10,798 bases of DNA from Selenomonadaceae bacterium. Lineage in GTDB: Bacteria > Bacillota > Negativicutes > Selenomonadales > Selenomonadaceae. The DNA is taken from NCBI GenBank assembly GCA_017453765.1, contig JAFTEG010000044.1, positions 1 through 10,798 on the forward strand, given 5' to 3'. Positions 971-10,793 of the stretch are shown here, one piece after another (within the stretch, counting starts at the first letter, position 1; every line of letters begins with the position of its first letter). The position numbers were made by a program, and so were the translations under genes. Under the pieces are notes generated by a model. It had not been told where the DNA came from, searched no databases, and saw nothing but the letters and a program-made list of their open reading frames with translations.

Positions 971-3748
971 ATGCCCGATATTGAAGTCGAGGATAAAATA
1001 AAAAATTCGGACGAAGTTGCAGAACAATCCGACGTTGCAACTGTTTCCGCCGATAAAAATACCGTTGAACAAGAAAATATCACTTCCGCCGATAAAAATC
1101 CAAACGCGGAAGAAAAACCTAAACGCGGGCGCAGAAAAAAAGTTGCTGACGATACTGCGACTAAAAAGAAGGCTAAAAAACCTGCCGCCGCCGATAAAAA
1201 TTCAAACGCCGATAAAACTTCCGCGACGCAGGAAAAACCTAAACGCACGCGCAGAAAAAAAGTTGTTGATGACACTGCGGCTACTGAAACACCTGCGGCT
1301 AAAGATAAAACTGCTAATAAAACGGCGGCTAAAGATAAAGCGGCTGATAAACCTACAACTAACAATAAAACTGCGACTAAGAATAAAGCTGATGAAAAGC
1401 CGGTTGAAGAGCCGGTCACCGTTTCAATGCCGGAAAAAAAATCCCTACGCCCCACGTATAAAAATGATGAACGCGAAAAAGTTTTTGCACTTGATATCGG
1501 TACGCGCAGTGTTATCGGCATTGTAGCGTTGCGTGACAAGAAAGGCAATTTGGAAGTTATCGCCACGACGCGCGAAGAACATAAAACCCGCGCCATGCTT
1601 GACGGTCAAATACACGACGTGCCGCAGGTTGCTGAGGTCATTGAAAAAGATCGCGACGAACTTTCAAAGCACGTAGGCAAACTTACCAATGCCGCCGTTG
1701 CCGCCGCAGGACGCGCACTTTTCACTATGACTGCCGATGTTGAAATGGATATGCACGGCGTCATTACTGAGGAGCAGCAGAGCAATTTAAATTTCACCGG
1801 CGTACAAATTGCGCAGTCAAAGCTTGTCGAATCAAATTTAATCGACGACAGGACGAGTTATTGTTGCGTAGGATTCAGCGTGATAAGCTACGAATTGGAC
1901 GGCGTTCCGCTGAAAATTTTGGTTGGACAGCGCGGCAGGCGTGCGCAGGCTAAAATTATTGCAACATTTCTGCCGCGTCAAGTTATCGACTCCATGCAAA
2001 CGGCGCTGAATTACACGGGGCTTGAAATGCGTGCGCTGACGCTTGAACCTATCGCCGCGATAAACGTTTTAATTCCGCAGACAATGCGTCACCTAAATTT
2101 AGTGCTGGTCGACATAGGCGCGGGGACTTCCGACGTTGCAATTACTAAAAACGGCGCGGTGGTTGCTTACGGCATGGTACCCATTGCAGGCGACGAAATT
2201 ACAGAGGCGCTGTCACAAAAATTTTTGCTGGACTTCAACGTTGCCGAAGCGGTCAAGCGTAAGGCGTCGAACGGTGAAAGTGCGACGTTTTTTGACATTC
2301 TCGGCGAAGAATATAATTTGACGGCGGACGAAATTGTAGCGCCGATTTCTGAAACGATTTCAAACCTTGCAAACGCTATTTCCGCGTCGATTTTGGAATT
2401 GAACAGCGGCGAACTTCCGCAAGCGGTAATTTTGGTAGGCGGCGGATCCCTTACGCCGAAACTTGCCGAATATGTTTCCGACGCGCTGAAAATTCCCGCG
2501 CAGAGGGTTAAAGTTCGCACGCCGGTAAATGTCGAAGGCATGACAGGCATACCGAAGGAACTTTGTCGCCCCGACGCCGTGACGCCGCTCGGCATTTTGA
2601 AAATTGCGTCAAGCAACACGTTGCACTTTTTAACTGTCTACGTCAACGACGAAGAATACAGCCTTTTCCATTTCCGCGAATTGAACGTAAGCGACGCGCT
2701 TTTAACTGCAGGCATTCAACTTCGCAAATTGAACGGCAAACCCGGTCTCGGCTTAATGGTTATGATAAACGGCGAAAAAAAGATTTTTCCCGGCAGTATG
2801 GGGACGCTGGCAAGGTTGACTGTCAACGGCGAACCGGCTACGCTTGAATCGCAGATTAAAAATGACAGCAGGATTAAAGTTGAACGCGGCATTGACGGTC
2901 GCACGCCGAAACTTAGAGTTGCCGACGTTGTAATTGTTTCGCCAAATTTCTACGTGAAAATCAACGGCTCGGAAGAACCCGTCACGCCGAAAATTTTGGT
3001 GAACAACGAAGACAGCCTGCCCAATCGCCTTTTGCATGACGGCGACGAAATTAATACCACGACACTGCGCACGGTCGGCGAAGTGCTTAACATTGCCAGC
3101 TATCCTGCCGAAGGTCGACAAATTCATTACACGTTGAATGAACAGAAATTTTTATATTCCTGCTCGCCGAAAATTACGCTGAATGATTTGGAAGTGCCGC
3201 TGTCAGAGCCGGTACGTCCCAACGATCGCATTGAGTACATTGATTCGCCCAGTCCGAAAGTTGCCGACATTATCAGCTACATTGGCATTAACGCCTACAT
3301 AAAAATTATGTATGAAGGGCAGGAAGTCAGCATTCCGACAATGGCAAGCCTTGAATTGAAAGTCAATGGGCGTCCTTCAAATTTAAATACCATTGTCGAC
3401 GACGGCGCGGAAATTATTTGTAAGAAAACCTCACGCAAATCCGTTACCGTCAGTGACGCGTTGCTTGCCGTGAAATTTAATCCGCCCAATCCCAAAAGCC
3501 GCTTGAGTTTTGAAATTAAGGTGAACGGTCACCCCGTTGACTTCACCGACTCCATAACCGAAGGCGACAGGTTGGAAGTGGTTTTGCGTACTCCCGACGG
3601 CAAGGAAATTTCCTCTTCAAACAGCTTGAAAGCCGCGCTGAAAGAGTTCGACGAGTTGTCCTCTTCACTGCCTTCAACCAGTACGCCAATGCGCGAAATG
3701 AAGACGCAACGCAAGCTCACCATTCAAGATTTTATTCGCAACGATTAA
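971..3748 (+). CDS. FtsA/PilM-fold cell-division-type ATPase with basic N-terminal tail and C-terminal repeat domains
   Basis: 925 residues, about twice the usual FtsA (~420). Residues 1-165 are low-complexity (Lys/Ala/Asp/Thr) with a 40-residue repeat carrying KPKRGRRKK (49-57) and KPKRTRRKK (89-97). The actin-like ATPase domain spans about 172-530. It has phosphate-1 LDIGTRS (D175), an FtsA-like 1C region containing VPQVAEVIEKDRDE and GVITEEQ, phosphate-2 LVDIGAGTSD (D381), and adenosine motif VILVGGGSLTPKL (G490-492). Residues ~555-880 hold four or five diverged small domains of pattern VNGxPxxL...DGDxIEV...TVxDAL (near 617, 664, 736, 797, 850). A Ser/Pro linker and the terminal peptide RKLTIQDFIRND follow. 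No membrane segment is seen. ATG 971 follows GGGAGG (957-962). FtsA normally tethers FtsZ to the membrane; a role here in division or envelope assembly is inference. A PilM-like scaffold is the alternative. Confidence 0.85.
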   Translation: MPDIEVEDKIKNSDEVAEQSDVATVSADKNTVEQENITSADKNPNAEEKPKRGRRKKVADDTATKKKAKKPAAADKNSNADKTSATQEKPKRTRRKKVVDDTAATETPAAKDKTANKTAAKDKAADKPTTNNKTATKNKADEKPVEEPVTVSMPEKKSLRPTYKNDEREKVFALDIGTRSVIGIVALRDKKGNLEVIATTREEHKTRAMLDGQIHDVPQVAEVIEKDRDELSKHVGKLTNAAVAAAGRALFTMTADVEMDMHGVITEEQQSNLNFTGVQIAQSKLVESNLIDDRTSYCCVGFSVISYELDGVPLKILVGQRGRRAQAKIIATFLPRQVIDSMQTALNYTGLEMRALTLEPIAAINVLIPQTMRHLNLVLVDIGAGTSDVAITKNGAVVAYGMVPIAGDEITEALSQKFLLDFNVAEAVKRKASNGESATFFDILGEEYNLTADEIVAPISETISNLANAISASILELNSGELPQAVILVGGGSLTPKLAEYVSDALKIPAQRVKVRTPVNVEGMTGIPKELCRPDAVTPLGILKIASSNTLHFLTVYVNDEEYSLFHFRELNVSDALLTAGIQLRKLNGKPGLGLMVMINGEKKIFPGSMGTLARLTVNGEPATLESQIKNDSRIKVERGIDGRTPKLRVADVVIVSPNFYVKINGSEEPVTPKILVNNEDSLPNRLLHDGDEINTTTLRTVGEVLNIASYPAEGRQIHYTLNEQKFLYSCSPKITLNDLEVPLSEPVRPNDRIEYIDSPSPKVADIISYIGINAYIKIMYEGQEVSIPTMASLELKVNGRPSNLNTIVDDGAEIICKKTSRKSVTVSDALLAVKFNPPNPKSRLSFEIKVNGHPVDFTDSITEGDRLEVVLRTPDGKEISSSNSLKAALKEFDELSSSLPSTSTPMREMKTQRKLTIQDFIRND
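1111..1285 (+). repeat. Internal 120-bp-period repeat in FtsA-like N-terminus
   Basis: About 50 bases beginning at 1112 recur at 1232 with few substitutions, an exact 120-bp (40-codon) offset. Each copy encodes EKPKR-x-RRKKV followed by an Asp-Asp-Thr-Ala stretch, and contains an A7 run. In-frame duplication would lengthen or shorten the basic tail without disrupting the ATPase. Confidence 0.75.
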
Positions 3749-3758
3749 CTTCGCCGAC

Positions 3759-3814
3759 ATTAACTTTACACCGAAATTAATCTTATCTCAAAATTAACTT
3801 TACACTGAAATTAA
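3759..3814 (+). repeat. 22-bp direct repeat in the gap before the GT8 gene
   Basis: ATTAACTTTACAC followed by CGAAATTAA at 3759-3780 recurs at 3793-3814 with one change (C to T), at a spacing of 34 bp. The two copies fill most of the 88-bp gap. They form no hairpin, so no terminator is evident here and read-through from the FtsA-like gene is possible. Confidence 0.65.
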
Positions 3815-3836
3815 CCATACATTAAAAGGAGCTTTT

Positions 3837-5066
3837 ATGATACACGTTTGCTACGGGCTTTACGACGGCACAGGGCGCTACTCAAAATTTACCGGCACGT
3901 CCATACTGTCAATGTTTGAAAACGTCTCCACCCCCCCCCGTTCGGTTACCGTGCACCTTTTGCACGATGACACTTTGACTGACGATAACCGCGATAAATT
4001 TTCATACATTGCCGGTCAGTACAATCAGCTGATAAAATTCTACAACGTGGAAAAAATCTGCGCGGACGAACTTGCGGCGCTAAAAGAAATACTTACCGAT
4101 TTTTCCAAAAGAAATTTTACAATAGGTACCATGTTCAGATTGCTTATGACAAAAATTTTTTCAGATGACATTGGAAAAGTTATTTACCTTGATTCGGACA
4201 CGGTAGTAAATCTTGACATAGGAGAACTTTGGAAAATTCCGCTTGACGATAAAACTATAGCTGCCGTTCCCGAATCGACAAACGGAATAGACGGAATGGG
4301 ATTTCCACTTTGCAAAGACGGGCTTGTAAGGGCAGCGGATTATTTTAACGCAGGCGTCATTATCATAAATCTTGATAAACTGCGCGGCAGTGAGTTTGAA
4401 AATTTTCAAGCAGAAATAAAGTTTATCGCTGAAAATCCTAAATATATTTGGATGGATCAAGACATTTTTAACTACTGCTTTTCAAAAAATATGGTTAAAT
4501 TGTCGAGCAGATTTAATTTTTCAGTAAGAAATCGCGGCGAACAGAATGTAAAAAATAAAATCTGCCATTATCTGGGCAAAACTTTGAATTTAGGCAGGGA
4601 CGACAAATTTAACAGGCTGTGGTTCAAATATTTTAAGAAGACGCGCTGGTTTGATGAAGACGTTATTTTTAATTTCTACGACGAATTTAAACAACGTGAT
4701 GCCGAGCTGAAAAATTTTGCCGCGCAGGTTTCGGCGCTTATGTCGGGCAAGAGTCGCACATTTTTTGTAGAGGCAATGAACATTGAATTTATAAAAAGAG
4801 TTTTCTACGTGCAGGCAGGCGAAGAAATAATTCCGGCGGTCAATCAAGAATCCGTGCAGGCTTTGAAAGAGTCAATGAAGTCGACGGCAGGCAGTAAGCT
4901 TTACTTCATATTAATCGGCATCGGCTACGAAATTGTACGCGCCGAACTTATGAAAGAAGGCTTTGCGGAAGGCAGGGACTTTATCAACGCGGTAGAATTT
5001 TTGTCGCCGATACACGGCATTCCGATGAATATGTACTATGAAAATTCTTTGATAAAAATGCTGTAA
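3837..5066 (+). CDS. Family GT8 glycosyltransferase with extra C-terminal domain
   Basis: 409 residues. Family GT8 retaining enzymes move a sugar from a nucleotide-sugar donor, typically galactose or glucose in lipopolysaccharide outer core or surface glycans; the true donor and acceptor cannot be read here. Visible motifs are VIYLDSDTVV with the metal-binding D119-x-D121, FNAGVIIINLDKL (170-182), WMDQDIFNYCF (205-215), and the late metal/phosphate motif HYLG (H244-G247). No signal peptide or membrane segment is seen, as expected for a cytoplasmic-face enzyme. About 125 residues follow the catalytic domain, including YFILIGIGYEIV and a GFAEGRDFINAVEF stretch that looks like a small Rossmann-like module. 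ATG 3837 follows AAAAGGAG (3824-3831) at 5 bases. Arginine codons in the middle favour AGA/AGG more than in the neighbours. Codons 32-35 contain a C9 run (3931-3939). Confidence 0.9.
   Translation: MIHVCYGLYDGTGRYSKFTGTSILSMFENVSTPPRSVTVHLLHDDTLTDDNRDKFSYIAGQYNQLIKFYNVEKICADELAALKEILTDFSKRNFTIGTMFRLLMTKIFSDDIGKVIYLDSDTVVNLDIGELWKIPLDDKTIAAVPESTNGIDGMGFPLCKDGLVRAADYFNAGVIIINLDKLRGSEFENFQAEIKFIAENPKYIWMDQDIFNYCFSKNMVKLSSRFNFSVRNRGEQNVKNKICHYLGKTLNLGRDDKFNRLWFKYFKKTRWFDEDVIFNFYDEFKQRDAELKNFAAQVSALMSGKSRTFFVEAMNIEFIKRVFYVQAGEEIIPAVNQESVQALKESMKSTAGSKLYFILIGIGYEIVRAELMKEGFAEGRDFINAVEFLSPIHGIPMNMYYENSLIKML
3931..3939 (+). repeat. C9 homopolymer inside the GT8 coding sequence
   Basis: Nine consecutive C's encode Thr-Pro-Pro-Arg (codons 32-35). 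One extra C brings TGA at 3968-3970 into frame; one fewer brings TGA at 3976-3978 into frame. Such a run is unexpected in this moderately AT-rich region and resembles the slippage tracts of phase-variable surface glycosyltransferase genes. Confidence 0.8.
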
Positions 5067-5168
5067 AAATTTGGTAAAAGCATTATGAAAATTTGATTAA
5101 GCATCACTTAAATCTTTCGACGCGAAAAAATTTTGTCGATAACATTTAGGATTAAATTTTGCATTAAG

Positions 5169-5175
5169 GGCGGTG
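5169..5175 (+). promoter_or_regulatory. Ribosome binding site deciding the FakA-like start
   Basis: GGCGGTG, one change from GGAGGTG, ends 6 bases before ATG 5182. An in-frame GTG at 5173 lies inside this site, and its own nearest purine run (AAGGG) is only 2 bases away, so ATG 5182 is preferred. Confidence 0.65.
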
Positions 5176-5181
5176 AAAATT

Positions 5182-6420
5182 ATGGGTGGCAGCAGAGAAG
5201 TTATAACAGGCGGAGATTTTAGGCGAATGGTATCCGGCGCGTACAGTGAATTTTTATTGGAATATGCGACGATAAACGCGCAGGAAGGCGCGGGGACGTT
5301 GCCGGGTACGCATATACTTAGGACGATGGGCGCGGCTGTCATGCCGCTGACTGATGCAAAAGATGACGGCATAGGCGGCTTAAGCAGGCGTGTTGCAACG
5401 GCGGCTGTATTCGGTGCGCGTGGAAATGCGGGTGTGGTTTTGGCGCAAATGTTTCGCGGCATTGCTACGGGCTTAATCGGCAAGTACGACGCTACCGGCT
5501 CGGAATTTGGCAAGGCGTTTCAATACGGCATTTTGTACGCGCAGAGGGTAATGCCTGAAAAGCCGGAAAGCCCGTTCATATACGTGGCGAAGGCGGTTGC
5601 AAAGGGAGCTTATCGCGCAGTTCGTGACGGCATGCCCATTGCCGAAATTTTGGAAAAGGCGATAAAGACGGGTGAAGACGCCGTAGAACAGACGGGACAC
5701 AATGACGCGGGCGCGCACATAATGTTCAGCTTTTTGAAAGGGTGTTTGAAAGGGCTTGACGGCAATTTTGTATCACCGGCAGTAAGTCTTTCACTCGGCT
5801 TGGGTACGCATAAAAATATGCCGGACCCGCGAAATGACAGAGTGCGACCATACTGCATACGTCTTCGCGTGAAAAATGCAAAGGCGAATATTTCGGAGCT
5901 TGAACAGCAGATGAAAGACTTAAGCAGTTTTTCAATCGTCGAAAGAGCTGGCGGAATGATTGATGTTCACCTGCATACGGATCACGTCGGCAAGGCGCTG
6001 GATCAAGCGTTGGGCTGGGGACCGTTGCGCGACGTGAAAATTACGAATATGAGTGAAAGTCACGTCCTGCCCGCGCACGATGCATTGATGACGGTGGCGG
6101 CGCTTGCAGTAGCGAAAAATTCGGACGAGGCGCAGAAATTACAAAATGCCGGCGCGTCAATTTTGGTTTCCGGCAGTGCGGACTCTTCGCCTTCGGTATC
6201 AGAAATTGTCGGCGCGGCACATTCGGACTTGGCGTCAAGTTACGTCTTGGTGTCGTCAAGTGACGATTACAGATTGGTCTTTCAACAGGCTAAAAAACTT
6301 TTAGGCAACCGCGTCGAATTGGTTTTGACTGATTCATTTGAAGGCGCCGTAGCCGCATTAAAAAAATTTTCAGCAGGTTTTTCTGCCACTGAAAATGCCA
6401 AAGTAATGCGTAATGCGTAA
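5182..6420 (+). CDS. FakA-like DAK2-domain protein, probable pseudokinase
   Basis: 412 residues against ~550 for FakA, the ATP-dependent kinase that phosphorylates FakB-bound fatty acids. Family features are clear: EVITGGDFRRMVSGA at the start, GARGNAGVVLAQMFRG (~residues 75-90), NDAGAHIMFSFLKGCLKGL closing the DAK2 domain, then a middle domain with YCIRLRV, IDVHLHTDHVGKALDQAL and LRDVKITNMSESH. The segment where FakA has its nucleotide/Mg motif (FPVPDGDTGTNM) reads INAQEGAGTLPGTHI, so both Asp ligands are missing. The C-terminal region stops soon after a DSFEGAVAALKKF segment, losing roughly 100 residues of the usual domain. The 3' end runs into a heptamer repeat. Fatty-acid kinase activity is therefore doubtful; a regulatory or lipid-binding role is inference. 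The gene ends at the convergent terminator. Confidence 0.85.
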   Translation: MGGSREVITGGDFRRMVSGAYSEFLLEYATINAQEGAGTLPGTHILRTMGAAVMPLTDAKDDGIGGLSRRVATAAVFGARGNAGVVLAQMFRGIATGLIGKYDATGSEFGKAFQYGILYAQRVMPEKPESPFIYVAKAVAKGAYRAVRDGMPIAEILEKAIKTGEDAVEQTGHNDAGAHIMFSFLKGCLKGLDGNFVSPAVSLSLGLGTHKNMPDPRNDRVRPYCIRLRVKNAKANISELEQQMKDLSSFSIVERAGGMIDVHLHTDHVGKALDQALGWGPLRDVKITNMSESHVLPAHDALMTVAALAVAKNSDEAQKLQNAGASILVSGSADSSPSVSEIVGAAHSDLASSYVLVSSSDDYRLVFQQAKKLLGNRVELVLTDSFEGAVAALKKFSAGFSATENAKVMRNA

Positions 6421-6991: not shown

Positions 6992-8257
6992 CTACTCATT
7001 CTGCGTCCAAGTATTATTTTCGCGATTGTAAGTGTACGATGAACCGTCGCTGAAGGTGAAATTAGATGCGCCATTTTCTCCTACAATTCTAAGGGTCTCT
7101 CCGCCGCTCATTTCGATTAAGAGGTTGTCGCCGATTTCCTTAGCCGAAACGATATCGGTCAATGAAACATTGTACAGATTAATTTTGTCGGTCAAGGCGC
7201 TGTTATAAATAACGTCATTGCCTTCATTTAAGCCGTAAAAAAAAGTATTGGTACCGGCGCCGCCGAAAAGCGTATCATTGCCGCCTTGTCCCCAAAGTAA
7301 ATTGTTGCCGCTGCCTGCGCGAATTTCATTGTCATTGGCATTACCTGCCAGCTGATTGTCGCCGGTTGATTCTGTAGCGTCAATACTGTTTATATTGCCG
7401 TATGAAACACCTTGTGAGCCGTCAAGCCAAATATTTTCTGCACTGCTTTCAATTACTTTCAGCACGTCTTCAAAATTTCCGCCGCCGTAAAAATTTACGC
7501 CCTTTTCATAAATGAAAGTATTAATAGCGTCTTGATAACCTAATTTGGCGTAGGAAACATTTTCGCCGTCAGTCGAATACTGCAATATGTCGTTGGCAGA
7601 TTCGCCGGTCTGTGCTTGAAAAGAGGTACCGTTTGCCATATTAAAACTTACGTAGTCACTTTGGCGAAGGTAAGAGCTGACAGCGTTGTCGACAAAGTTA
7701 ATTACGCCGCTGTTTTTAACAAAATCCGTGAGATAGCCGTTGCGGTTGCCGACGTCATAAAAAAGGCTTGAAAGGTACGAGTCAGAATTTTTAGCGTCAA
7801 AATGTTGCTCAGAATTGCCGTTGCGACCGGTTATAGCGTAGTCGACATTTTCAGTAGGCAGTGAACTGTACTGCTCAATGATATCAGAAAAATTCATATC
7901 GGGACTAAGTACAATGGTACGGGTTTCAGTAGTCGAGCTTTCACTGGTAACGCCGTCAACGGTAGTAATCTGCGTAGTGGTAGTGACTTCATTTAAAACG
8001 CCGTCTTCAACCGTAATTTGACTTACGGTGCTTTGTTGTTCACTGGATTCCGTCGTAACGTCATTGACAGTTTCGCTTCTGCTTTCTGACATATTTGAAT
8101 AGATTTTAGTTTTTAAGCTGAGGTCTTCGACCGATACCGGCAAAGAACTAATATCTACTTCAGATGTACCGGCGGAAAAAATATCTGTCAGATTAACGGC
8201 AGTAAAATCATTTTCATTGGAAGAATCATTAGTGGAATTAACTTTGACATTATCCAT
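6992..8257 (-). CDS. RTX-type calcium-binding-repeat secreted protein (copy 1)
   Basis: 421 residues. The N-terminal third (~1-125) is Ser/Thr/Glu-rich, with a short imperfect repeat around VEDGVLNEVTTTTQ and VDGVTSESSTTET. The core begins at DVGNRNGYL, followed by SDYVSFNMANGTSFQAQT, YSTDGENVSYAKLGY and NINSI segments shared with the two genes to its right. RTX-like turns lie at about residues 304-340: NDNEIRAGSGNNLLWG, GGNDTLFGGAG. The tail is NVSLTDIVSAKEIGDNLLIE, GGETLRIVG, then SYTYNRENNTWTQNE. RTX turns bind Ca2+ in the family, and such proteins leave by type I secretion with a C-terminal signal; no N-terminal signal peptide is seen here. ATG 8257 is chosen over the upstream in-frame ATG 8278 because GAGGT (8265-8269) sits 7 bases before it. 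Its substrate or function is not recognisable. Confidence 0.88.
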   Translation of the reverse strand: MDNVKVNSTNDSSNENDFTAVNLTDIFSAGTSEVDISSLPVSVEDLSLKTKIYSNMSESRSETVNDVTTESSEQQSTVSQITVEDGVLNEVTTTTQITTVDGVTSESSTTETRTIVLSPDMNFSDIIEQYSSLPTENVDYAITGRNGNSEQHFDAKNSDSYLSSLFYDVGNRNGYLTDFVKNSGVINFVDNAVSSYLRQSDYVSFNMANGTSFQAQTGESANDILQYSTDGENVSYAKLGYQDAINTFIYEKGVNFYGGGNFEDVLKVIESSAENIWLDGSQGVSYGNINSIDATESTGDNQLAGNANDNEIRAGSGNNLLWGQGGNDTLFGGAGTNTFFYGLNEGNDVIYNSALTDKINLYNVSLTDIVSAKEIGDNLLIEMSGGETLRIVGENGASNFTFSDGSSYTYNRENNTWTQNE

Positions 8258-8264
8258 AATTATT

Positions 8265-8269
8265 ACCTC
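8265..8269 (-). promoter_or_regulatory. Ribosome binding site deciding the RTX copy 1 start
   Basis: GAGGT on the minus strand, 7 bases upstream of ATG 8257. It lies downstream of the alternative ATG at 8278, which has no comparable site, so the longer form is unlikely. Confidence 0.7.
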
Positions 8270-8304
8270 ATGAAACATTTTAGAATTTTATCGGCTGAAA
8301 AATG

Positions 8305-9516
8305 TTATGCCGTCTTAGTCCAGCTGTGCGATTGGCGATTGTAGTTATAAGCGGAGCGATCTGACAGCACGAAGTTGGACGCGCCGTTTTGACCGACTAC
8401 AGTAAGGGATTCGCCGCCTTGCATTTGAATAACCAAATCTTGACCGACTTCATTTGCCGAAACAATATCGGTAAGAGAGACATTGTACAAATCAACTTTA
8501 TCCGTCGCAACGCTGTTGTAAATAACGTCACTGCCTTCATTCACGCCGTAAAGATAAGTATCTTGAGCGCCGCCGCCGCCATAAAGTACGTCATTACCGG
8601 CGCCGCCCCAAAGTTCATTACTTCCTGCACCGGCACGAATCTCATTGTTGCCGGCGTTGCCGTAAAGCGTATTGTTGCCTGTCGAGCCGGCGGCATTTAT
8701 ATTATTAATGTTGTCGTAAATTATACCTGTCGAGCCGTCAAGCGCGATATTTTTTGACTCGTAGGTATTGACATTCAAAACGTCAGTGTGTTCACTGCTG
8801 CCGAGATAATGCACGCCGTCAACGTATTCAAAGCTGTTGTCTCTGTCGCTGTAGCCGATTTTTGCGTAGGAAATATTTGTGCCGTCCGTCGTATATTGGA
8901 AAATGTCATTTTCCGAACTGCTTGTCTGCGCTTGAAATGAAGTACCGTTGCCCATATTGAAACTTACATAGTCATTCGTTCTCTTGTACGAAGAAATATT
9001 AACGTCGACAAAATTCATGACGCCGGTGTTATTGTTAAAGCCGTTAAGGTAGCCGTTGCGGTTGCCGACGTTGTAGAAAGTGCTTGCCGTGTAACTGCTT
9101 GAGTAACTGCCGCTACTTATAGTTTTTGTCTGCACGGACGTGTTGCCGTTGTTGTAACCGCTGATGTTGTAGTTGTAAAACGAACTGTCAGTATTATTCT
9201 GTACGAAAGTGTAACCCGTCACAAGGTCCGTAAAGCTGAAATTGACGCCTGTCGTCATTGCGCTTAAAGTGCTGAAATTATATGAGCCGTCCGCCGAAGG
9301 AGTGAAAGCATTGTTGAAAACGGAGAAAATATCCGATGACGCAGTTAAAGTCATAGCCGGATTGTTGATATTGGCAAGTTCATTGTGATTGTTTACAGTC
9401 GGCGTCGTAGAAGAATTTGTGTAGCCGGAAGGCAGGTATTGGCTGATATCAAAATTATCAGCGCTGATATCTGCCGAAAAGCTTTTTTCAGGGATTATAT
9501 TTTCGTTTGTGTCCAT
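8305..9516 (-). CDS. RTX-type calcium-binding-repeat secreted protein (copy 2)
   Basis: 403 residues, rich in Asn, Ser, Tyr and Gly, with no Cys-rich or membrane segment. The N-terminus (MDTNENIIPEKSF...) is unrelated to those of copies 1 and 3. The shared core starts at NVGNRNGYLNGF, then NDYVSFNMGNGTSFQAQT, YTTDGTNISYAKIGY and LDGSTGIIYDNIN. RTX-like turns at about residues 285-318 read GNAGNNEIRAGAGSNELWG and GGAGNDVLYGGGG. The tail has LYNVSLTDIVSANEVGQDLV, GGESLTVVGQNGASNF and AYNYNRQSHSWTKTA. ATG 9516 follows GGGAGG (9526-9531) at 9 bases. It is 47 bp upstream of copy 1 and probably cotranscribed with it. A surface-layer, adhesin or secreted matrix role would fit, but that is a guess. 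Confidence 0.88.
   Translation of the reverse strand: MDTNENIIPEKSFSADISADNFDISQYLPSGYTNSSTTPTVNNHNELANINNPAMTLTASSDIFSVFNNAFTPSADGSYNFSTLSAMTTGVNFSFTDLVTGYTFVQNNTDSSFYNYNISGYNNGNTSVQTKTISSGSYSSSYTASTFYNVGNRNGYLNGFNNNTGVMNFVDVNISSYKRTNDYVSFNMGNGTSFQAQTSSSENDIFQYTTDGTNISYAKIGYSDRDNSFEYVDGVHYLGSSEHTDVLNVNTYESKNIALDGSTGIIYDNINNINAAGSTGNNTLYGNAGNNEIRAGAGSNELWGGAGNDVLYGGGGAQDTYLYGVNEGSDVIYNSVATDKVDLYNVSLTDIVSANEVGQDLVIQMQGGESLTVVGQNGASNFVLSDRSAYNYNRQSHSWTKTA
8516..8662 (-). repeat. 147-bp near-identical block, member A
   Basis: Matches 9916-10062 at an exact 1400-bp offset with a single difference (8623 T against 10023 G). The block encodes the RTX turns and the following YGVNEGSDVIYNS segment. 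Confidence 0.9.
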
Positions 9517-9561
9517 TTTAAATATCCTCCCATTCTGTCATTAAATTTTAAAATAAAAGAA

Positions 9562-9598
9562 GTCGACAGGCTTAACTTAATTTGAAAAACCTGCCGAC
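9562..9598 (-). terminator. Hairpin in the gap between RTX copies 3 and 2 (terminator or leader structure)
   Basis: On the minus strand GTCGGCAGG (9598-9590) pairs with CCTGTCGAC (9570-9562) over 9 bp with one G-U pair and a 19-base loop. TTCTTTTATTTT follows. The interrupted T-run and large loop make it a modest terminator. It lies 46 bases before the copy 2 start, so it could equally be a 5' leader element. Confidence 0.45.
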
Positions 9599-9605
9599 CG
9601 TAATT

Positions 9606-9634
9606 AAAATATATATCGCTCGGCGTCTATTCAA
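9606..9634 (-). promoter_or_regulatory. Possible promoter for RTX copy 2
   Basis: TTGAAT (9634-9629) and TATTTT (9611-9606) are separated by 17 bases on the minus strand, each matching four of six consensus positions. If real, the hairpin at 9562-9598 would lie in the leader of the copy 2 transcript. The region is AT-rich, so chance matches are likely. Confidence 0.25.
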
Positions 9635-9692
9635 AATGCCTTTAACGCCTTACTTATTTATTTGCTAATTTTTTAATTTAACTTTGGGTTTT

Positions 9693-10793
9693 TTATACAG
9701 ATGCCGGAGCCGTCTGAGTCCAAGTGTTGGTCTGACGATTGTAGTTATATGCGGAGCGATCTGCAAGTACGAAGTTGGACGCGCCGTCTTGACCGACTAC
9801 AGTAAGGGATTCGCCGCCTGCCATGTTAAGAATCAAATTGTTATTTTCATAGCCGTAGCCGCTAATCTGTTCGAGCGAAACATTGTACAAATCAACTTTA
9901 TCAGTGGAGACGCTATTGTAAATAACGTCACTGCCTTCATTCACGCCGTAAAGATAAGTATCTTGAGCGCCGCCGCCGCCATAAAGTACGTCATTACCGG
10001 CGCCGCCCCAAAGTTCATTACTGCCTGCACCGGCACGAATCTCATTGTTGCCGGCGTTGCCGATGAGTTGACGCGCGTAATAGGTGCTGTTCGCATTGCT
10101 TGCATTAATGTTATCAATGCTGATATACTGACCTCCGCGCAGATCGATATTTCTGTCGTACGTCGAAACGTTCAAAGTATCTACATGATCATTACTGCCG
10201 ATAAAAAGGACACCGTCTTGATAAGCAAAACTGTTATCTTGGCTGGTAAATCCGATTTTTGCGTAGTAAGTATTTACGCCGTCCGTCGTGTAGCGGAAAA
10301 TGTCGTCAGTCGAACTGTTTGTCTGTGCTACGAATGTAGTGTCGTTACCCATATTGAAATTGACATAATCGTTTTCGCGAGTCCAAGATTGAATATCGGC
10401 ATTGACAAAATTCAATGTATCCGTGTTGACATTGTAGCCGTTAAGGTAGCCGTTGCGGTTGCCGACGTTGTACACTGTGCTTTGCGAAAGGGTGCTGGTA
10501 GAATTAATGCTGCTGTAGTTAGAACGGTATACAGAAACGTCGCCGTTCGTATAACCGCCGTTATAGTACGTGGATGCGGAATACTGATTCGTAAAGATAC
10601 TGCCGGCGATATTCAAAGCGCCAACAAGCTGATTGTACGAAACACTGGCTCTGGTACCGCTTTCACTGCCGCCGCCAATTTCCCAGTCCGTCGCAGTCTC
10701 CATAAGCGCCGGAGAGTTGGAAACAACGCTTGCAAGTCCGCGTGCGCCAATGCTGTTGAAAATGTTGCTCAAATTAAATCCGAGAGCTGCCAT
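9693..10793 (-). CDS. RTX-type calcium-binding-repeat secreted protein (copy 3), start near window edge
   Basis: 366 residues from the ATG at 10791-10793. Only five bases lie upstream and the frame is still open, so neither the Shine-Dalgarno nor the true start can be judged; the protein may be longer. The N-terminus (MAALGFNLSNIFNSIGARG...) differs from copies 1 and 2. The core resumes at NVGNRNGYLNGYNVNTD, then ENDYVNFNMGNDTTFVAQT, YTTDGVNTYYAKIGF and VDTLNVSTYD. RTX-like turns at about residues 244-277 are GNAGNNEIRAGAGSNELWG and GGAGNDVLYGGGG, identical to copy 2. The tail differs in one patch (ISGYGYENNNLILNMA in place of IVSANEVGQDLVIQMQ), then rejoins at GGESLTVVGQDGASNF and AYNYNRQTNTWTQTAPASV. 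It lies 176 bp upstream of copy 2. The role is unknown. Confidence 0.85.
   Translation of the reverse strand: MAALGFNLSNIFNSIGARGLASVVSNSPALMETATDWEIGGGSESGTRASVSYNQLVGALNIAGSIFTNQYSASTYYNGGYTNGDVSVYRSNYSSINSTSTLSQSTVYNVGNRNGYLNGYNVNTDTLNFVNADIQSWTRENDYVNFNMGNDTTFVAQTNSSTDDIFRYTTDGVNTYYAKIGFTSQDNSFAYQDGVLFIGSNDHVDTLNVSTYDRNIDLRGGQYISIDNINASNANSTYYARQLIGNAGNNEIRAGAGSNELWGGAGNDVLYGGGGAQDTYLYGVNEGSDVIYNSVSTDKVDLYNVSLEQISGYGYENNNLILNMAGGESLTVVGQDGASNFVLADRSAYNYNRQTNTWTQTAPASV
9916..10062 (-). repeat. 147-bp near-identical block, member B
   Basis: Partner of 8516-8662, differing at one base. Similarity continues in patches through the tail-coding part (about 9730-9820 against 8330-8420) at the same 1400-bp offset, interrupted by a diverged stretch at about 9820-9890. 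Confidence 0.9.

Follow-up and report, generated by a model that had tools for sequence, protein, structure and literature searches.

Phase variation through SSRs is best known in host-adapted Proteobacteria and in the relatives of Campylobacter. In Neisseria, poly-G tracts are found in the LOS glycosyltransferase genes lgtA, lgtC and lgtD, and a poly-C tract in lgtG (PMC6400993). A GT8 gene from an uncultured rumen bacterium shares with these lgt genes a G/C homopolymer inside a glycosyltransferase gene, slippage of which truncates the enzyme in Neisseria (PMC6400993) and would do so here. LgtC (1g9r) is also among the nearest solved structures (profile E 5.8e-18; Foldseek E 1.8e-13), yet it is only about 21% identical in the fold alignment, has a chain of 311 residues instead of 409 and comes from a different phylum; with homology this distant, the product is only a candidate for an LPS enzyme of the LgtC type. 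Regarding whole phasomes, 29 loci with G/C tracts of 7 or more have been described in C. jejuni NCTC11168 (PMC4965091). The genome studied here harbors a similar number (31 tracts of at least 8, in a draft that is 69% complete), in both cases mostly of 8-11 nucleotides and mostly in surface-modification genes, together with a few restriction enzymes in C. jejuni (PMC4965091, PMC6321876). However, switching has been measured in C. jejuni whereas it is deduced from sequence here and, unlike in C. jejuni, the present set includes four tracts in promoter-like spacers, and the genes that follow two of these spacers belong to defence families. The three classes of tract position described in Helicobacter canadensis, namely promoter, 5' and C-terminal (PMC2823697), all occur in the present genome as well; in H. 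canadensis, tract-length variability was detected in read data (PMC2823697).

The window, i.e., the whole stretch of 10,798 nucleotides under analysis, corresponds to contig C325 in a draft genome of 2.09 Mb that consists of 431 contigs. Its named homologues belong to Quinella sp. and to MAGs of Selenomonadaceae or Selenomonadales, apart from one locus labelled Synergistaceae (L170), and the window is on that basis assigned to Quinella, a genus of Negativicutes from the rumen without cultured members. The GT8 gene matches Glyco_transf_8 (PF01501, E 1.8e-32) and encodes the conserved pair D119/D121, invariant in alignments A1 and A2; the DSD to which both residues belong is presumably the DxD motif, with a metal role. 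Among the nearest solved folds is also WbbM (6u4b), an O-antigen enzyme and the top structural match. Flanked by A on its 5' side and by G on its 3' side, the C9 tract spans codons 32-35 (ACC CCC CCC CGT, T-P-P-R). In the AlphaFold model of the protein (mean pLDDT 83), the residues that it encodes form the loop leading from the first long helix (14-28) to the second strand (37-43), and the length of this loop varies across homologues (alignment A1). The preliminary description had placed the tract at these codons of a GT8 gene and had predicted that slippage by one unit in either direction leads to a TGA and to truncation at about 45 residues; direct reading and frame computation bear out the coordinates and codon phase of the tract, both stop codons and the truncation, the 409-residue protein being reduced to 44 or 46 residues. 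Lengths of C6, C9 and C12 all preserve the frame, a step of three being harmless. Tracts of 7-8 or more G/C inside an ORF have served as the threshold for phase-variable genes (PMC6321876), and the C9 lies inside the ORF at that length or above.

The C9 tract can be read, with a probability of roughly 0.87, as a translational phase-variation switch and as one of the poly-C/G contingency loci of Quinella. Slipped-strand mispairing during replication would alter the number of C, presumably in a reversible manner. With C9, or with a length differing by three, the full-length GT8 enzyme would be made, while with any other length translation would end at about residue 45, upstream of the catalytic-core DSD, and the enzyme would be absent. 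The gene would be one among the poly-C/G contingency loci that occur throughout Quinella, over half of which are of surface-sugar type in the present genome, and each cell lineage would thereby differ in which genes are ON and which are OFF, and probably have its own surface, with phage, protozoa or the host as the likely selective agent. The features concerned are collected in Table 1.

Table 1. Positions of the tract, of the GT8 gene and of selected tracts elsewhere in the same genome (unprefixed positions refer to the window, the others to the locus named).
Feature	Position	Strand	Basis or remark
C9 homopolymer, proposed slipped-strand switch	3931..3939	+	direct reading, frame computation, relatives
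GT8 gene, 409 aa, in frame now (ON)	3837..5066	+	ORF, Pfam PF01501
AAGGAG, likely ribosome-binding site, 5 nt 5' of ATG	3826..3831	+	direct reading; inference
TGA reached after +1 tract change, 44-residue product	3968..3970	+	computed
TGA reached after -1 tract change, 46-residue product	3976..3978	+	computed
DSD, residues 119-121, absent from shifted product	4191..4199	+	alignments A1, A2
G9 in 19-nt spacer of sigma70-like promoter, 5' of IetA-like AAA ATPase gene	L106:2134-2142	-	PADLOC IetA 3.3e-40
G9 in 19-nt spacer of sigma70-like promoter, 5' of JukA-like gene	L107:2991-2999	+	JukA 2.6e-46
Tract in middle of flagellin lysine-N-methylase gene (FliB), open through now	L103:6155-6163	-	NF038110, 1.5e-69
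G8 tract splitting DNA methyltransferase into two frames	L112:2913-2920 (G000:C227)		adjoins phage tail gene (phrog_52)
Junction tract, FdtA/FdtA	L114:869-878
Junction tract, pyruvyltransferase/FrhB-like	L116:6687-6695

Considered alone, the tract is only moderately surprising, since codon usage in 159 ORFs of the same genome gives ACC-CCC-CCC for those residues in about 1% of cases. In the window, three C7 words are observed, all inside the C9, against a shuffle mean of 0.24 (0 of 200 shuffles reach three), and no second C/G run of at least 7 was found there. At the scale of the genome, 63 C8 words resolve into 31 distinct poly-C/G runs of at least 8, where about one would be expected by extrapolating the fall from C6 (20 runs) to C7 (4 runs). 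The run spectrum is bimodal, with C8, C9, C10 and C11 represented by 5, 21, 4 and 1 runs, respectively; the counts of C6 and C7 are exact for the whole genome, those of at least 8 were measured in 28 contigs (the window and 27 others), and short contigs may be absent from the counts, as 8 contigs under 3 kb are all N in the sequence examined. A/T runs decay steadily in the same contigs (45 A8, 6 A9 and 1 A10 in 201 kb), and the dip from C6 to C8 followed by a peak at 9 is unlike a simple decay. The tracts are thus commoner in this genome than expected by chance. Regarding codon choice, no glycine codon is rarer than GGG (4.7%), and GGGGGG nevertheless encodes 11 of 335 Gly-Gly pairs against 0.74 expected; for CCCCCC the excess is slight (6 of 81 Pro-Pro pairs against 4.0). 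Chance coding of Pro-Pro as the origin of the tract is ruled out by the genome-wide spectrum.

The number of tracts is not special to the genus. With counts uncorrected for G+C content or genome size, tracts of at least 8 have a median of 18.5 per genome (range 2-90) in 60 Quinella genomes and of 9.5 (maximum 42) in 26 genomes from other genera of the family, while several of 121 genomes from other families of the class reach 30-41 (e.g., 41 in G135, 36 in G142, and 35 in G056); these raised numbers elsewhere in the class indicate that the trait may be wider than Quinella. A lack of mismatch repair was considered as the cause of slippage and ruled out, mutS1 scoring over the cut-off in 52 of the 60 genomes of the genus and giving some match in all 60; the present genome has only a fragment at a contig edge together with a relative below the cut-off.

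The genes in which the 31 tracts are found were assigned by Pfam, NCBIfam and PADLOC scans of the open frames at or just 3' of the tracts, apart from L032 and the second L102 copy, which were placed by paralogue homology outside the domain scans. Eighteen of the 31 belong to glycosyltransferase families or to families of sugar, methyl or acyl transfer. Eleven of them are glycosyltransferases (two GT8, GT92, GT-D, GT1-like, two GT11/GT2, two GT2, GT9, and GT61); the seven others are FdtA, GNAT (PseH-like, below the cut-off of that model), UDP-glucose dehydrogenase, polysaccharide pyruvyltransferase, Methyltransf_24, FkbM, and a hexapeptide acetyltransferase for which all models are below cut-off. 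The whole genome gives 17 matches to the GT2 family (16 over cut-off), 5 of which fall in tract genes, a rough indication of enrichment. The remaining tracts are associated with FliB, two radical-SAM paralogues, DUF1919, DUF4422, a DNA methyltransferase, four promoter-like sequences and three genes without clear family (L108, L122, L125). Each half of the DNA methyltransferase (L112) is below the Pfam cut-off, PADLOC and PHROGs being in agreement on it, and the enzyme is possibly phase-variable and prophage-borne.

For the 27 coding tracts, the coding strand was chosen and the open frames upstream and downstream were compared. An automatic rule gave 13 tracts with the same frame on both sides and 14 with different frames; in the author's classing, 11 are open through, the frame continuing for at least 500 nt beyond the tract, 12 show a frame change at the tract, the upstream frame stopping at most 71 nt past it and another frame running for at least 200 nt, and 4 near C-termini (two in L111 and one in each of L114 and L125), where the frame runs on for under 100 nt, are ambiguous. 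The cleanest splits are those of the UDP-glucose dehydrogenase and the DNA methyltransferase, where successive parts of one family lie in different frames. Two of the 12 frame-changing tracts are junctions of two complete domains (L114 and L116), and slippage there could fuse or separate both proteins.

Variation at the site itself can be followed in relatives. GT8 N-termini were taken from loci L001-L070 and L141-L214 (171 unique by their first 150 nt, once 4 starts too close to contig ends had been dropped); the 170 N-termini with a downstream match, from 92 loci, were compared, each gene being counted once. With a run of at least 7 at the site, 9 copies are in frame and 15 are shifted (n = 24), whereas with a shorter run 141 are in frame and only 5 are shifted (n = 146; Fisher P 1.3e-11 for tract versus frame break, a value that overstates certainty because the copies are paralogues or come from related species). 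The contrast between copies with and without a tract is large despite this non-independence. Runs in frame are C7 (2) and C9 (7), and shifted runs are C7 (4), C8 (2), C9 (2), C10 (4), C11 (2), and C12 (1). In 4 of the 5 broken copies without a tract, C3-C5 is found at the site, perhaps as the remains of eroded tracts. Length and frame also differ between close gene copies, among relatives as well as paralogues: C8 and C10 in paralogues at L004 (60-nt flanks 98% identical upstream and 87% downstream), C9 and C10 in paralogues at L205 (93 and 90%), C8 and C9 in the GT11/GT2 paralogues of L096 and L097 (95 and 85%), and C7 in L174 against C8 in L177, which belong to two species (88 and 80%). The phase-variation reading of the preliminary description gains from both observations. 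The comparison of orthologues that it had proposed is in its favor, frame breaks being linked to the tract. The pattern that it had named as refuting, Pro-Pro encoded without a tract, is present in 3 of the 12 in-frame copies whose loop contains Pro-Pro; this counts against the reading but does not refute it, since these three copies indicate that the GT8 protein does not need the tract, which fits a dispensable switch.

If the frame breaks were sequencing or assembly errors, the genes would always be ON and the tracts inert. The named copies do come from draft MAGs, where errors would fall at homopolymers, and some single tract lengths may be wrong in such records, which weighs against the switch. 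However, the named loci come, by their titles, from several MAG projects, the run is no longer than C7 in 4 of the 15 shifted copies, and errors would leave unexplained the bimodal excess of runs and their location in glycan-type genes and promoter-like spacers, so that this explanation appears very improbable.

Homologous proteins offer another view of the switch at this site. Considering the best 120 of 774, the alignment starts at residue 1 in 108 and further along in the other 12. Five of the 120 listed (P0057, P0086, P0101, P0104, and P0113, with an identical start in P0101 and P0113) have 15-36 unmatched N-terminal residues and join the family from the tract onward; when compared with the three frames of the 170 N-termini, these residues find a match (E <0.01) solely in the frame displaced by one base, as would be expected if a gene caller had processed an OFF allele. 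The remaining seven begin downstream at a methionine and may correspond to OFF alleles, to other start choices or to partial genes. In the relative G003, which has 90 tracts of at least 8, GT8 genes carry C12-C13 near residue 185 (loci L048, L049, and L050), 3 of the 7 such tracts in the loci examined being in frame and 4 at a frame change, and the presence of what looks like a second switch site in the family suggests that switching itself is under selection. The tract of the window is capable of switching and is part of a family that does vary, and it probably switches itself.

The sole orthologous locus compared is L154 from a reindeer MAG, where positions 1082-6404 correspond to 971-6414 of the window and the C9 is kept. 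Identity between the two amounts to 91% for the flanking FtsA-like protein and 95% for the FakA-like one, against 61-74%, over two segments, for the GT8 that they enclose. For this one pair, the GT8 gene seems to have diverged faster than its flanking genes, as would be expected if its product faces phages or predators. No second contig of the same species was found among the matches listed in the protein search, the query protein being a singleton with the next protein 81% identical.

The GT8 copy of L154 is in frame at the tract and has another frameshift beyond it, as might be anticipated if the GT8 families were expanding, with shifted copies as pseudogenes in decay and with the tracts as debris left by mutation where selection is relaxed. 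GT8 copies are often in tandem (42 of the 92 loci gave 2 to 7 sites) and 5 of the 146 tractless copies are broken, which agrees with such decay. Nevertheless, breaks cluster at the tract where decay would scatter them, and downstream frames are often open for hundreds of nucleotides, making decay a poor candidate for the whole pattern, hardly to be expected. Lastly, homopolymers can make a polymerase or a ribosome slip, and transcriptional or ribosomal slippage at the tract would give some full-length enzyme at any length, a dimmer and not a switch, but this alone would not yield DNA length differences between similar copies and is the least probable explanation.

With regards to the literature, the mechanism is already known from Neisseria lgtC and Campylobacter, and it is for the lineage and the large scale that no description was found. 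In agreement with the preliminary description, which knew of none for GT8 genes of Negativicutes, the titles and abstract starts of the matches listed include no account of phase variation by homopolymers, be it for Negativicutes, for Selenomonas or for bacteria of the rumen. A paper on gut invertons, a different mechanism, reportedly mentions Negativicutes once. The main text of a 2010 survey of homopolymeric tracts contains neither Selenomonas nor Veillonella (PMC2831843), and neither "phase vari" nor "homopolymer" occurs in the Quinella genome paper. Judging by sequence, SSR phase variation at about the scale of C. jejuni would exist in an uncultured, outer-membrane-bearing member of the Firmicutes. 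Quinella abundance is raised in some low-methane sheep (PMC9585023). By SEM and TEM of one sample, Kumar et al., in the Quinella genome paper, distinguished cells bearing a granular or electron-dense coat from cells that lacked it. They proposed that the cells differed in growth stage or in species, or that the surface structures were an artefact of preparation. Phase variation could be a further explanation for the two surface types, one that is testable from metagenome reads without culture; if the switch is real, sister cells could wear different coats, and switching would complicate rumen strain tracking and work on phage receptors.

Besides the coding tracts, four tracts (L104, L106, L107, and L118) lie in spacers of 19-20 nt between TTGACA- and TATAAT-like hexamers with 11 of 12 positions matched; among random sites with C9 inserted as a control, 29 of 3000 reach 10 of 12. 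The usual -35/-10 spacer is 17 nt. All four spacers being longer, the promoters may be weak in their present state. The gene downstream of the L104 tract encodes a peptidase of the clostripain family and that downstream of L118 has no family match, while the JukA-like gene at L107 is followed by an LRAT-domain gene. It is possible that the L106 and L107 tracts represent phase-variable promoters of anti-phage-family genes; the partners IetS and JukB were absent from the few neighbouring ORFs tested, so these two loci are considered as leads and not as demonstrated defence systems. A wider proposal, which we hold tentatively and with far less confidence than the switch at the GT8 gene, is that Quinella possesses a genome-wide, phage-facing contingency system in which about 30 hypermutable poly-C/G switches (90 in one relative) would randomise surface glycans, flagellin and DNA methylation and, through -35/-10 spacing, at least two promoters of anti-phage families (IetA-like and JukA-like). 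If so, the cells of a given rumen would spread their risk with respect to receptors as well as immunity, a form of bet-hedging, and the two surface types seen by EM would be accounted for.

Two other features of the window can be mentioned. Just 5' of the GT8 gene, the intergenic region contains two near-identical direct repeats of 22 nt (attaactttacac-gaaattaa) at 3759-3780 and 3793-3814. On the minus strand, positions 6992-10793 encode three adjoining proteins of 366-428 aa that are similar to one another and have RTX-type nonapeptide matches, and RTX-like ORFs, judged by eye, are found on further contigs of the same genome.
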